Shown: piece after piece, positions 3,503 to 26,160 of the stretch
How the letters are laid out: every line of letters begins with the position of its first letter
Position numbering within the stretch: the stretch's first letter is position 1
Translations under genes and position numbers: made by a program
IMG/VR virus record: IMGVR_UViG_3300045051_000388
Coordinates: 1-27,359 of that record
Length of the DNA stretch: 27,359 bases
Direction: 5' to 3' (one strand)
DNA from: a virus
Notes under the pieces: model-generated
Seen by the model: only the letters and a program-made list of their open reading frames with translations
The model's database searches: none
What the model was told of the DNA's origin: nothing

Positions 3503-3513
3503 ACAAGATTTGT

Positions 3514-3735
3514 TTACGGTGGATTTATTGAGAGTGGGAGGCCATAAATTCTTTGGCCGTCACGTCGGTTGATGGGTTTCAAGTGGTTTTCGGATGCATT
3601 TTGGGGGGCGCAGGAGAGATGCCGAAGGGCCTTCGTGCGGCGGTCCAGGATGGCGGGTTGGCCCGCGGGGATGGGGAGCCGGCAGGAGACGCAGCGGTTC
3701 GGCCACTTGGTGAAGATCCTCGCGAATCGATCCAT
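3514..3735 (-). CDS. Zinc-ribbon-like small protein
   Basis: 73 aa. The core PNRCVSCRLPIPAGQPAILD followed by RHLSC has the two Cys pairs and the glycine turn of a small zinc ribbon. ATG at 3735 has no Shine-Dalgarno sequence; a TAATCT lies 16 bases upstream, so a very short leader is possible. It is transcribed away from the plus-strand late operon, with 77 bases between the two heads. Family and function are unknown. Confidence 0.65.
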   Translation of the reverse strand: MDRFARIFTKWPNRCVSCRLPIPAGQPAILDRRTKALRHLSCAPQNASENHLKPINRRDGQRIYGLPLSINPP

Positions 3736-3761
3736 GGAAGGAAACGGTATCAGATTAGGGG

Positions 3762-3790
3762 TTGACCGTCACACATAAAAGATGGACATT
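3762..3790 (+). promoter_or_regulatory. Candidate promoter of the late (plus) operon
   Basis: TTGACC (3762-3767), a 17-base spacer and GACATT (3785-3790). An in-frame ATG at 3798 lies seven bases after the -10, so the transcript may be leaderless; a second ATG at 3813 has GGTGAG upstream. The -10 is weak, so this is a candidate only. Confidence 0.4.
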
Positions 3791-3812
3791 GCCCGAAATG
3801 GGTGAGTCCTCG

Positions 3813-4043
3813 ATGAGCCGACAAGCGAAGTGGAGAGAGAAGAAGCAGGTTGCCGGCAAGTGCATCCGCTGCGGGAAGCTGAGGGACTGCGGAAGTACGG
3901 TCTACTGCTACGAGTGCCTGGTGAAGCACCGGGAGAAGCAAAGAGCCCGAGCTGGGTCCCTGGCCTGGACCGGAAGAAGTATCCATGGAAAGAAGTCCCG
4001 AGGCCGCCCCCCCTACGGGAAGGACTCAGTCAATGACGGCTAA
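3813..4043 (+). CDS. Small basic Cys-pair protein
   Basis: 76 aa. A basic N-terminus leads into KCIRCGKLRDCGSTVYCYEC, a CxxC...CxxC zinc-ribbon pattern common in phage microproteins, then a basic helix and a Gly/Lys/Arg tail. ATG 3813 has GGTGAG six bases upstream. An in-frame ATG at 3798 would add five residues and would suit a leaderless message from the promoter at 3762-3790. It is the first gene of the late operon and overlaps the next by 11 bases. No named family is recognised. Confidence 0.7.
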   Translation: MSRQAKWREKKQVAGKCIRCGKLRDCGSTVYCYECLVKHREKQRARAGSLAWTGRSIHGKKSRGRPPYGKDSVNDG

Positions 4044-4442: not shown

Positions 4443-4618
4443 ACCTACCTAGTTGGCTCCTGGACGGAAATCCAGCGAGGCACCGAAGGATGGTCTGGAA
4501 GAGGACACGTCCGGCTAAACTCCGTAGAGAACTCAAAGCCCAGACTAGGAACGGACGAGAGCCGGACCCTGAGTTTATTCAGTTCATCTCCGACCTAGCC
4601 CATGGGATAGACCGATGA
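4439..4618 (+). CDS. Small basic protein before the terminase genes
   Basis: 59 aa (MNLPSWLLDGNPARHRRMVW...), strongly basic in the middle, with a hydrophobic acidic C-terminal helix (PEFIQFISDLAHGID). ATG 4439 has AGGA about eight bases upstream, and its TGA overlaps the terminase small-subunit ATG as ATGA. Size and place just before terS are typical of small packaging-region genes, but no family is recognised. Confidence 0.65.
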   Translation: MNLPSWLLDGNPARHRRMVWKRTRPAKLRRELKAQTRNGREPDPEFIQFISDLAHGIDR

Positions 4619-5091
4619 ACGAACTCCCTGAACTCGTCGCCATCGATGCCCCGCCGATGAGGCTCACAGACCACTTCGGGAACCTGGACCTAGACCTCTG
4701 GCGGCAACAGCTCGACCACAGGCTCGAAGTCATCTCCGAAGCCTTGACGGCGGGACGGCTCAAGACGAAGCGGCAAATCGCCGTCGTTGCCAAACGGCTC
4801 AATGTGAAGCCCCAACACGTCAAACTCTGGATCTCAGACCCCAAAGTCCTCAAACGTGCCGCCCAGTACGCCGTCGCCGGGGCTCTCCCCTATCAGGCTG
4901 AGAAGGCTAAGGAAGACCTAGGCGCCTTCAAGGCTCTTCAGGGTCAGGCTGGCCTAGTCGAAACTGGAACCAAGGTCCAGACCAACGTCGCCATCGACGC
5001 TCGAAGCCGCGGAGACACCGAGTCAGATCGGAAGTTCTTCGAGCAGTACCGGAAACGAGTCGAATCTGCAGTCTCAGACACCGCTTCTTGA
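4615..5091 (+). CDS. terS: Terminase small subunit (probable)
   Basis: 158 aa. Residues about 50-76 (TKRQIAVVAKRLNVKPQHVKLW) read as a helix-turn-helix, the DNA-recognition element usual in terminase small subunits. The remainder is helical and ends in a charged tail (DRKFFEQYRKRVES). It directly precedes the large-subunit ATPase, which is the strongest argument. The protein should recognise the packaging start and form a ring that hands DNA to the large subunit. It ends in TCT TGA C, and the large-subunit frame runs through this stop in the +1 frame. Confidence 0.75.
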   Translation: MNELPELVAIDAPPMRLTDHFGNLDLDLWRQQLDHRLEVISEALTAGRLKTKRQIAVVAKRLNVKPQHVKLWISDPKVLKRAAQYAVAGALPYQAEKAKEDLGAFKALQGQAGLVETGTKVQTNVAIDARSRGDTESDRKFFEQYRKRVESAVSDTAS

Positions 5092-6655
5092 CGAGTTCAG
5101 GGCCCGAGCCCGTACTTCCCCCTGGCTCGCCTACCCTCTAACCGCCGTTCCCAAGCTCCTGCCGTGGCATGAGTCGAAGGCACACTACCGAGTCCTCTCC
5201 GGACCCAACGGAGGAGGCAAATCGACCGCCGGAGCCGCTGATTTCGTCTCCTACCCGCTCGGCTATAACCCCATACGGGACGAACACTATGAGACTCCCA
5301 ACGTCTGCTGGGCCGTCTGCGTCGAGTACAACTCCTCAGGCCGGGTTATGTACCGAAAGATCTCGGACATGCTCCCCAGGGACCGTAACGGTAAGCCACG
5401 ATGGAAGTTCTATAAGCAAGAGCACCTCTTTGTCCTCGATAACGGCTCCCACATAGCCCTGAAAAGCCAAAAAGAGGGCGAATCGAGCCTCTTGGCCGAG
5501 CGATGCAGGGCCATCTGGATTGATGAGGCTATGGGCGGTGACCGAGGAGAAGAAAACTTCGGCGAACTACAGGCCCGAGGGCTCCCCGACGAGCCTTTGG
5601 ACATGCTTTTCACCCTCACACCCAAGATGGACATCGGTTTGGACTGGATGCGCCGTAAACTGTGGTGCGAACCCGGCCAAGAGCCGCACGAGGACTTCAT
5701 CAAGGGCACATATTGCCTTCGGTTCGAGCTGAACGACTGCTTGAAGGAAAACGGAGGCTACCTTTCGAGGGAATACGTAGCCCAGAGGGAGTCAACCGTC
5801 GATCCTGACGAGCGGGAGGCCCGAATCCTGGGGCTCTGGACCCCGTTCATGTCGAGGCCCGCGTTTTCCTTCCGATTGCTCCTAGAGGCCGCAAACCGAG
5901 CCCCCAAAACCGAGACCGTGACGCTCCGGGGCTCCCCGTTCTCGGGATTCAAGAAGGAGGTCGTCTCAGGTGGCCCAAACAAGATGCAAAGGGAGAGGGA
6001 ATCGGCCCACAACTATATCGCAGCTTGGGATCCGAGCTCTGGACTTGGAAAGGGGCACGATAACAGTGCCCTCAGCATATTTGACCGCTCGGACCTATGT
6101 CATGTCTTCTACGCCTCTGCCAACGACATGGGTCCAGACCAGTTCTACCGGCAAATCGTCCTCCCAGCCGCTTCCTACTATAACGAAGCCCTTCTTGCCA
6201 TCGAGGTCAACGGGGAAGGCGGGGCCGCGGCGCTCCAGGCGGCTAGGGACTCGGGATACCAGAACCTCTACATGCAAAAGAACTTAGAGAAGACGGGAGA
6301 CCCCTACCTCGACAAGTGGGGCTGGCGCACCACCGAGCAGTCCCGAGGCCGGATGATGGACGCCATGCAACGGGCCCTGAAAGAGAACAAATGGACCCCT
6401 TCCAGGGACTTAGTCGAGGAGATGGGGCACGTCATGAAGAAAATGATGCCCTCCGGCAAGGTTCGGGTCGAGCACGCTGACGGCTTTCACGATGACCTGA
6501 CCATGGCCTCCGCCATTGCCCTGGCCATCCACTACGAGGAGCCGGTCTACGACTTCCCGAATTTTGCCAAACTCAAGGTCCGCTGGGGCGTCACCGAGTC
6601 CAGGGTGGACCTGCCCATGCTCCCAATGGGTCAAAACGACTCACTTTCCTATTGA
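5066..6655 (+). CDS. terL: Terminase large subunit, non-standard start
   Basis: This is the ATP-driven packaging motor and headful or site-specific nuclease. Counting from CTG 5066 it has 529 residues. Walker A is GPNGGGKST (46-54), Walker B is RAIWIDEA with D153 and E154, and the coupling motif is FTLTP. The RNase H-like nuclease has D322 (WDPSSG), E380 (AIEVNG) and D476-D477 (HDD). All catalytic landmarks are intact. The frame is open from 4958, but the first ATG, GTG or TTG is at 5348, after Walker A. The start drawn here (CTG 5066) is therefore a guess; a +1 frameshift from terS at TCT TGA C, or a sequencing error, are alternatives. Confidence 0.9.
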   Translation: MQSQTPLLDEFRARARTSPWLAYPLTAVPKLLPWHESKAHYRVLSGPNGGGKSTAGAADFVSYPLGYNPIRDEHYETPNVCWAVCVEYNSSGRVMYRKISDMLPRDRNGKPRWKFYKQEHLFVLDNGSHIALKSQKEGESSLLAERCRAIWIDEAMGGDRGEENFGELQARGLPDEPLDMLFTLTPKMDIGLDWMRRKLWCEPGQEPHEDFIKGTYCLRFELNDCLKENGGYLSREYVAQRESTVDPDEREARILGLWTPFMSRPAFSFRLLLEAANRAPKTETVTLRGSPFSGFKKEVVSGGPNKMQRERESAHNYIAAWDPSSGLGKGHDNSALSIFDRSDLCHVFYASANDMGPDQFYRQIVLPAASYYNEALLAIEVNGEGGAAALQAARDSGYQNLYMQKNLEKTGDPYLDKWGWRTTEQSRGRMMDAMQRALKENKWTPSRDLVEEMGHVMKKMMPSGKVRVEHADGFHDDLTMASAIALAIHYEEPVYDFPNFAKLKVRWGVTESRVDLPMLPMGQNDSLSY

Positions 6656-6688: not shown

Positions 6689-7174
6689 GTGAGCATAGCC
6701 GTTGTCATCCCTGCCATGGGCCGAAGGTCTCTCGGTGAAGCGGTCTTTTCGGTGGTTGGTCAGCTCACGGACGAAGATCAGCTCATCATCGAGATGGACT
6801 GGCCCCTTACTCTGGACTACGGGAACCGAGTTCGGGATCTTGGAGCCGCCAAATCCAGAACGAGCCATGTGTGGTTTCTGGACGATGACGACTTAGCCCT
6901 CCCCGGGGCGTTGGACGCTATGAGGGCAGCCATTGAGAAAGACGCCTCTACGGGTTGGGTGTTCCGAGTCGAAAGCGGTGGAAGGATTCTTCCAGACCAC
7001 GAGCAGATCAAATATTCGGCTGGATGCCAATGCTACGTCGTCCCCAATCCGGCCCCACCGTGGACTGGGCAGACCGATTCCTCATGGGCCCATGGAATCA
7101 ATGCCAGAATCGGACTGAAGTGGAGCGAGGCGATTATCGCTAAGCTCGGGGTAGGCAAGACGTGGCCAACCTGA
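6689..7174 (+). CDS. Small GT-A (family 2-like) glycosyltransferase
   Basis: 161 aa. The N-terminus MSIAVVIPAMGRRSLGEAVF is the nucleotide-sugar-binding strand and loop of GT-A enzymes. GNRVRDLGAAK and VWFLDDDD (residues 61-68) match the family-2 pattern, with the DxD motif that holds the metal and sugar-nucleotide. At 161 residues it is shorter than usual, so the acceptor domain is minimal. GTG 6689 has a promoter but no ribosome site; the 3' end overlaps the portal gene by 13 bases. It could sugar-modify a virion protein, phage DNA or a host surface polymer; the sequence does not say which. Confidence 0.75.
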   Translation: MSIAVVIPAMGRRSLGEAVFSVVGQLTDEDQLIIEMDWPLTLDYGNRVRDLGAAKSRTSHVWFLDDDDLALPGALDAMRAAIEKDASTGWVFRVESGGRILPDHEQIKYSAGCQCYVVPNPAPPWTGQTDSSWAHGINARIGLKWSEAIIAKLGVGKTWPT

Positions 7175-12242: not shown

Positions 12243-12487
12243 TGGCTTCGGTTCTCTATAAGGTCAATGTAGTGGGTGGGCAGAAGGACCGGATCATCCA
12301 GGACACGAACACCGGAACGACGAGCACATTCACACTCGTGGACAAGCCCAATGTCTATAGCATCGGGATTTCCAATCTAACCGCGGCCCGTGCCATGAGT
12401 TCTGGATACGTCCAGTCCACCGGGGTTGTCACCATCAGCGGCTTGACCTCCTCGGATTCGATCTTCTACGTGGTAAGGACTGACTAA
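12242..12487 (+). CDS. Small beta-rich virion protein
   Basis: 81 aa, rich in Thr/Ser/Val/Gly strands (TTSTFTLVDKPNVYSIGISN). GAGGAGGAATA precedes ATG 12242, the strongest ribosome site in this block, suggesting high expression. A capsid decoration protein would fit the size, composition and place downstream of the major capsid gene, but is not demonstrated. Confidence 0.65.
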   Translation: MASVLYKVNVVGGQKDRIIQDTNTGTTSTFTLVDKPNVYSIGISNLTAARAMSSGYVQSTGVVTISGLTSSDSIFYVVRTD

Positions 12488-12831
12488 TGGCCACAACCAA
12501 CCACTACGCGGGAAGCCAGATTACTTTCACCGAAGCCGCTGCCGCGGCTACCGTGACGAGCACGCTACCCGCTCCAGGCGCCGGATTGTCTTGGAGAATC
12601 GATAACGTCAGCTTCTTTTCGGGGGGCGCAATCACAGCCTGGAACATAGAGGTCACGGAGAACGGTGGGACTTCATGCTGGAAGTCGGGATCTACAAGCG
12701 CCGCTAATCCAGGAACCCTGATTGGTCCGATTGCAACCAAGGCCAACGACGCTCCAAAGGTAATCCTGACAGCTTCAGGTGCGGCTTCGTGCCAACTCAA
12801 CGTGGTGGCCACGCTCGTCGGTAGCGGCTGA
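12487..12831 (+). CDS. Small beta-rich virion protein, decoration-like
   Basis: 114 aa, Ala/Thr/Ser-rich and strand-like throughout, for example a jelly-roll-like alternation in SWRIDNVSFFSGGAITAWNI. The start overlaps the previous stop as TAATG. It follows a similar small beta protein, so the pair may be decoration or minor tail components. No family is recognised. Confidence 0.6.
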   Translation: MATTNHYAGSQITFTEAAAAATVTSTLPAPGAGLSWRIDNVSFFSGGAITAWNIEVTENGGTSCWKSGSTSAANPGTLIGPIATKANDAPKVILTASGAASCQLNVVATLVGSG

Positions 12832-24161: not shown

Positions 24162-24493
24162 GGACGAGCCTTCATATCTTCAATGAAGGTGGACTCGTTT
24201 GCGCCTTCTCCGGCAGCGATCCATCCTCCAGCGGGAGACAGAACTCCAGCGAGCCAGCCGTTGTAGAAAATGGCGGCATGGACTGGAGCTACATCCGGGC
24301 ATCCCATAGAGCCTTCCGGTTCCGCGTGTATTGGTGCGTCGGTACCGTTCAAGACAACGGCCCACGGTCCAACTGTCTCGGTCACCACCTTCCCCTTGAC
24401 TGGTGCGTGCCCGCGGGCCTGCATCAGTTCTGCCATGGCAACAAACGCCTCGCTGATTCCAGTCTTATCTACTTGCTCACCAATCGTGGTCAC
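24158..24493 (-). CDS. Unknown operon protein, beta-rich C-terminal half
   Basis: 111 aa. An N-terminal helix (EAFVAMAELMQARGHAPVKG) is followed by strands (GPWAVVLNGTDAPIHAEPEG, AAIFYNGWLAGVLSPAGGWI) and a short acidic tail. I do not recognise the family. The start is GTG 24493 with GGAGG four bases upstream; it overlaps genes on both sides by four bases, so it sits firmly in the operon. Confidence 0.65.
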   Translation of the reverse strand: MTTIGEQVDKTGISEAFVAMAELMQARGHAPVKGKVVTETVGPWAVVLNGTDAPIHAEPEGSMGCPDVAPVHAAIFYNGWLAGVLSPAGGWIAAGEGANESTFIEDMKARP

Positions 24494-24831
24494 GTTCCCT
24501 CCTTGAGCACTTCATCCAGAGCGGCGAGCCACGACTTGAAAACGTCAGCTAATACGTGACCAGGACCCGCAAAGGCGATGGTGATTGCGAGGTCATCCCT
24601 GACCTTCTGGATTGCTTCCCGGTTCTGGCGAAGGCGGAACTCAATGCGATCAGCCGCGCGATACAATCGCACGTACTCAATCGCTCGCTCTAGGGTGTCC
24701 ACGTCCATAGGCTCGGTCATCGGAGCAGGTCCTTCGAGAGCATGTCGAGCGCCCACTTCGGCCACTGGCTGAGCAGTTCCGGGCATAGGTGTCCGACCAC
24801 GCGGCCGCTTCCGTTCAAAATAGGAATCCAT
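24490..24831 (-). CDS. Unknown helical operon protein
   Basis: 113 aa. A basic Pro-rich N-terminus (MDSYFERKRPRGRTPMPG) leads to a helical domain (DVDTLERAIEYVRLYRAADR, then RLRQNREAIQKVRDDLAITI). ATG 24831 lies one base after the upstream stop, with GGGGGAG seven bases upstream; this ribosome site is part of the 24-bp repeat at 24841-24864. ATG 24720 (76 aa) is an alternative start with AAGGA ten bases upstream. Confidence 0.62.
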   Translation of the reverse strand: MDSYFERKRPRGRTPMPGTAQPVAEVGARHALEGPAPMTEPMDVDTLERAIEYVRLYRAADRIEFRLRQNREAIQKVRDDLAITIAFAGPGHVLADVFKSWLAALDEVLKEGT

Positions 24832-25890: not shown

Positions 25891-26160
25891 TTAGTGACGG
25901 CTCAAATAGCCGGAGCCGGAGCCGGAGCCGTCGCCGTAGCCGTAGCCGTAGCCGTAGCCGTCGCCGGAGCCGGAGCCGTAGCCGTAGCCGTCGCCGTAGC
26001 CGGAGCCGTAGCCGTCGCCGGAGCCGGAGCCGTCGCCGTAGCCGTAGCCGTAGCCGTAGCCGTCGCCGTAGCCGGAGCCGTAGCCGGAGCCGTAGCCGTA
26101 GCCGGAGCCGTAGCCGTCGCCGGACGTATGGCTATCCTCTCCTAGAGATGCTTGGACCAT
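25891..26160 (-). CDS. Gly-Tyr/Ser/Asp dipeptide-repeat protein
   Basis: 89 aa: a 13-residue head (MVQASLGEDSHTS), then 36 uninterrupted Gly-X dipeptides where X is Tyr (18), Ser (11) or Asp (7), then LSRH. Glycine is GGC throughout, and X codons are TAC, TCC or GAC except the last, TAT. The protein should be disordered, acidic and tyrosine-rich, comparable in composition to phase-separating or adhesive low-complexity sequences. ATG 26160 has GGAGG four bases upstream and lies 19 bases inside the preceding gene, which argues for a real gene. The function is unknown. Confidence 0.72.
   Translation of the reverse strand: MVQASLGEDSHTSGDGYGSGYGYGSGYGSGYGDGYGYGYGYGDGSGSGDGYGSGYGDGYGYGSGSGDGYGYGYGYGDGSGSGSGYLSRH
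25906..26121. repeat. 216-bp hexanucleotide tract, 36 units
   Basis: Exactly 36 hexamers, on the plus strand GCCGTA, GCCGGA or GCCGTC in mixed order (the last unit is GCCATA in coding sense terms). A block of four Tyr units followed by Asp, Ser, Ser occurs twice (units 11-17 and 28-34). Unit gain or loss changes protein length by two residues without shifting the frame, so length variation is expected. Confidence 0.85.

Follow-up and report, generated by a model that had tools for sequence, protein, structure and literature searches.

The window, by which we mean the whole 27,359-base stretch of an IMG/VR virus record analyzed here, carries a gene for a large terminase subunit (terL) whose frame runs open through 4958-6655, or 565 codons in a stop-to-stop ORF listing. 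The features of this locus are given below.

4615..5091, + strand: gene in the terS position, with an ATG start and a TGA stop at 5089-5091, from the ORF list
5066..5068, + strand: CTG proposed as the terL start, 45 codons before Walker A and the only near-cognate codon in the 43- to 57-codon range of its relatives
5066..5091, + strand: overlap of 26 bases between the 3′ end of terS and the proposed start of terL, with the phase seen in relatives
5066..6655, + strand: terL, large terminase subunit, 529 amino acids from the proposed start (PHROG 2, PF03237, alignment A2)
5201..5227, + strand: Walker A, GPNGGGKST, read directly and invariant in alignment A2
5510..5527, + strand: Walker B-like AIWIDE, read directly, its D and E invariant in alignment A2

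By profile, the frame at 4958-6655 encodes a genuine TerL with both ATPase and nuclease domains. Its product matched the terminase large subunit family PHROG 2 (E = 5e-15) and, above the cut-off, Pfam Terminase_6N (PF03237), and the profile of its family matched solved terminase nucleases (3c6a, E = 3.7e-06; gp17 structures 3ezk and 3cpe more weakly). Its identity to the relatives in alignment A2 was 68 to 89%. The protein encoded at 4615-5091 found no match in PHROG or Pfam searches, and "terS" (small terminase subunit) is therefore a positional name only, given by position and synteny: an 82% identical orthologue lies directly 5′ of terL in the relatives L002 and L008.

A codon scan and the ORF listing agreed with the preliminary description that the terL frame holds no ATG, GTG, or TTG until the ATG at 5348, and that Walker A lies near 5200 (GPNGGGKS begins at 5201), i.e., 5′ of that ATG. 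A start at 5348 would delete Walker A together with an invariant N-terminal block and was rejected. With ATG, GTG, and TTG making up 3.8% of codons across all frames of the window, a run of 130 codons without any of them has a chance of about 0.6%. Up to Walker A, the only near-cognate codons in the frame are CTG 4964, ATC 5027, CTG 5066, and CTG 5159. When the window was checked against the genome of L002 for genes that lack a start where one would be needed, terL was flagged by 126 codons and was the sole gene that would lose its core. Three other likely genes were flagged by only 12 to 31 codons, each where the sequence is shared with an upstream ORF, and the remaining flags were frames nested in or opposite flagged genes. 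The comparison with L002 also revealed 41 bases (24488-24528) that are 100% identical to 12475-12515 of that genome amid far more diverged sequence, possibly a conserved control element. Simple sequence lies at about 25891-26145, with GYGDGYGSG-type repeats on the − strand and RSRSRSR or AVAVAG on the + strand.

To place the N terminus, we collected relatives from IMG/VR with TerL, the upstream protein, and the alignment as queries, and found 13 distinct relatives that are 59 to 89% identical over most of TerL. All 13 start terL at a canonical codon 43 to 57 codons before Walker A: ATG in eight (L003, L004, L010, L013, L019, L024, L025, and L027), GTG in three (L006, L028, and L030), and TTG in two (L002 and L026). 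The starts of L025 and L030 were read separately because of their variant Walker A. In the nine relatives measured, the overlap of terL with the upstream ORF has a length of 20, 23, 26, or 32 bases, and its phase never varies. L002 (89%), which is the nearest relative, starts at a TTG at −43 codons with an overlap of 20 bases, two codons from the CTG of the window. In L006 and L007, the TAG that ends the upstream ORF is followed at once by the GTG of terL. In L003, the gene 5′ of terL is not terS, yet it too overlaps terL, by 32 bases; we read this gene as a glycosyltransferase-like ORF. Outside IMG/VR, no relative came up when 84,980 genomes of bacteria and archaea were searched by profile, so that no prophage or host could be assigned, and phage GenBank records gave only distant matches to the nuclease domain, which are uninformative for the N terminus of TerL.

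Gene content around terL differs among these phages. The glycosyltransferase-like ORF (MSIxVxIPxxGR..., with a DDDD motif seen by eye) follows terL in the window, at 6689-7174, and stands between terS and terL in L003, at 3511-3990, with the overlap onto terL kept. In L006, a short membrane-protein-like ORF (1056-1151) that begins with GTG, reads VNWLWIVLAFFIFSGVFLVGYLCGAMLGRDE, and ends in the abutting TAG lies between terS and terL; L007 has such an ORF just before terL as well.

Within the range where its homologues start, the window has no canonical start but an in-frame CTG, at 5066. This codon is the only near-cognate one between −43 and −57 codons; it stands at −45 codons, and its overlap with terS has a length and phase found among the relatives. 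We consider that translation of terL probably begins independently, in its own frame, at CTG 5066, with a probability of roughly 0.7. This was one of the options named beforehand, and the position, overlap length, and phase in the relatives back it. The chance of meeting a CTG somewhere within a 15-codon range is about 19%, so its presence is by itself modest evidence, and for this reason the case rests on position, phase, and overlap taken together with the exclusion of other options. The residues encoded around the junction fit this placement: PLL in the terL frame, just before the terS stop, matches PL(L/Y) or LL before (D/E)E(Y/F) in the relatives, and these residues belong to TerL because in L003 and L010 they fall 3′ of the stop of the upstream gene. 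Translation from CTG 5066 would yield (f)M-QSQTPLLDEFRARARTSPWLAYP..., a protein of 529 amino acids whose expected N-terminal peptide is MQSQTPLLDEFR. The CTG would presumably be recognized by the initiator tRNA, at the start of the last 26 bases of terS, stop codon included.

A start farther upstream does not agree with how the sequence has evolved. Over 4958-5065, the window and L002 differ at 19 sites, distributed 3/3/13 on the first, second, and third codon positions of terS. In the terL frame, these 13 third-position changes become second-position changes; that frame is therefore not under selection there, whereas changes over 5092-6550 fall 51/24/173 on the terL codon positions, the usual pattern. 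Since 4958-5065 varies only as terS, TerL coding does not extend up to CTG 4964, and this codon, which had also been put forward as a start, was rejected. ATC 5027, as an example of another near-cognate codon, is in frame and only one codon outside the family range (−58 codons), but bacteria do not usually start at ATC, the terL frame is not conserved around it, and the resulting overlap of 65 bases would be twice the largest one measured. We thus regard initiation at such a codon as very unlikely. Closer to the junction, 17 of the 30 bases at 5051-5080 differ from L002, while the adjoining 30-base blocks are 90 to 97% identical; the tail of terS and the N terminus of TerL vary freely.

The preliminary description had also raised a programmed +1 frameshift at TCT TGA C that would fuse terS to terL. 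The terS gene ends in GCT TCT TGA C, and terL lies in the +1 frame of terS. As in the RF2 (prfB) frameshift, UGA C closes the zero frame, but unlike in RF2, the codon before it is not CUU, no SD-like (AGG-like) element lies just upstream as a stimulator, and the arrangement is not conserved in relatives. Their stops and preceding codons vary (TCT TGA G, TCC TGA A, TCC TGA C, ACT TAG C, GAG TGA C, and GGC TGA G), every relative has a terL start of its own, a different gene precedes terL in L003, and the abutting TAG and GTG make a fusion impossible in L006 and L007. A terS-terL fusion would in addition lose the conserved PLL residues. Taken together, these points make the frameshift highly improbable.

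A one-base assembly indel that conceals an ordinary start, the third of the earlier proposals, is conceivable for a contig from a metagenomic assembly. However, the alignment of the window with L002 is free of gaps over 4615-5360, terS is intact up to its stop, and the terS-terL phase matches the one seen wherever the genes overlap elsewhere in the family. Because a base lost or gained would shift the phase away from that of the family, we rejected this explanation and give it next to no weight. The preliminary description had stated that its observation would be refuted by homologues whose start is normal here. The 13 relatives are such homologues, and they refute recoding and the indel but not initiation at CTG 5066.

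On the other hand, the codon itself may mislead. A single substitution would turn the CTG into a canonical start, the relatives start terL canonically without exception, and a switch from AUG to CUG is very rare in prokaryotes (2 of 61,358 AUG starts; PMC5622118). Codon 5066 could therefore be canonical in the real population and CTG by a consensus error, or the sampled genome could have a start substitution that cripples terL. Against this, terL is otherwise intact and the contig bears no sign of decay; we consider such an error or substitution unlikely, though it deserves real weight. An IMG/VR search for a near-identical junction, with the first base of the codon left free, returned no match.

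CTG as the terL start is seen in none of the 13 relatives. CUG has 0.86% of the activity of AUG in E. coli and accounts for 0.024% of bacterial starts (PMC11497404). The predicted Shine-Dalgarno (SD) pairing of the window terL is also weak (−3.5 kcal/mol, near the background mean of −3.4), so that no compensating site is present. This weakness is shared by the group: predicted anti-SD pairing was weaker at its terL starts than at 21 other genes of the window (median, −3.5 versus −6.3 kcal/mol; Mann-Whitney P = 0.0003), in a comparison that sets the terL starts of relatives against the other genes of one phage and uses an E. coli-type anti-SD sequence, which may not be that of the host. The proximity of stop and start is conserved as well, as overlaps of 20 to 32 bases in nine relatives, by abutment in L006 and L007, and in L003 despite its different upstream gene. 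Weak ribosome-binding sites and a conserved overlap suggest that terL is translationally coupled to the upstream gene. Ribosomes that have just completed terS would probably get to the terL start close by before they are fully recycled, and this would help initiation where both the start codon and the ribosome-binding site are weak.

Backward coupling over 34 to 38 nucleotides is documented for the coat and lysis genes of phage fr (PMC10666635, PMC12548453). There, as in the window, the downstream start lies tens of bases before the upstream stop, consistent with reinitiation after termination, but fr is an RNA phage whose coupling was shown by experiment, whereas that of the window terL is inferred. 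In experiments with natural gene pairs, coupling favored overlaps of 1 to 8 nucleotides, which argues against the 26-base case (PMC10666635). A more speculative idea, which we hold tentatively and think has a minority chance of being right, is that the CTG start of this phage lineage, made workable by reinitiation from terS termination, keeps the amount of packaging motor low and in constant proportion to the small subunit.

A CTG start for terL is uncommon but not new; on the evidence of sequence comparison, the gene pair would be of a familiar type with a rare start codon rather than a novel form of recoding. Rare CUG initiation is known in bacteria and phages, and ORF10 of phiB124-14, as annotated, likewise has CTG at its start position (PMC3338817); the window terL differs in being an essential packaging gene with a start inferred from relatives. 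Compared with the terS-terL pairs of the same phage group (L002, L004, L010, L019, L024, and L026 to L028, with L003 having another upstream gene), the window has CTG where these have ATG, GTG, or TTG. In all of them, as in the window, terL begins before the upstream gene has ended, with an overlap of 20 to 32 bases in the same phase, and the SD is mostly weak.

For annotation, gene finders limited to ATG, GTG, and TTG would put the terL start at 5348 and cut off Walker A, leaving a core phage marker gene truncated. If the CTG is real, nature would have provided a clean test of whether start-codon choice becomes less strict under termination-reinitiation. In other respects, the locus changes nothing in the understanding of how terminases work.
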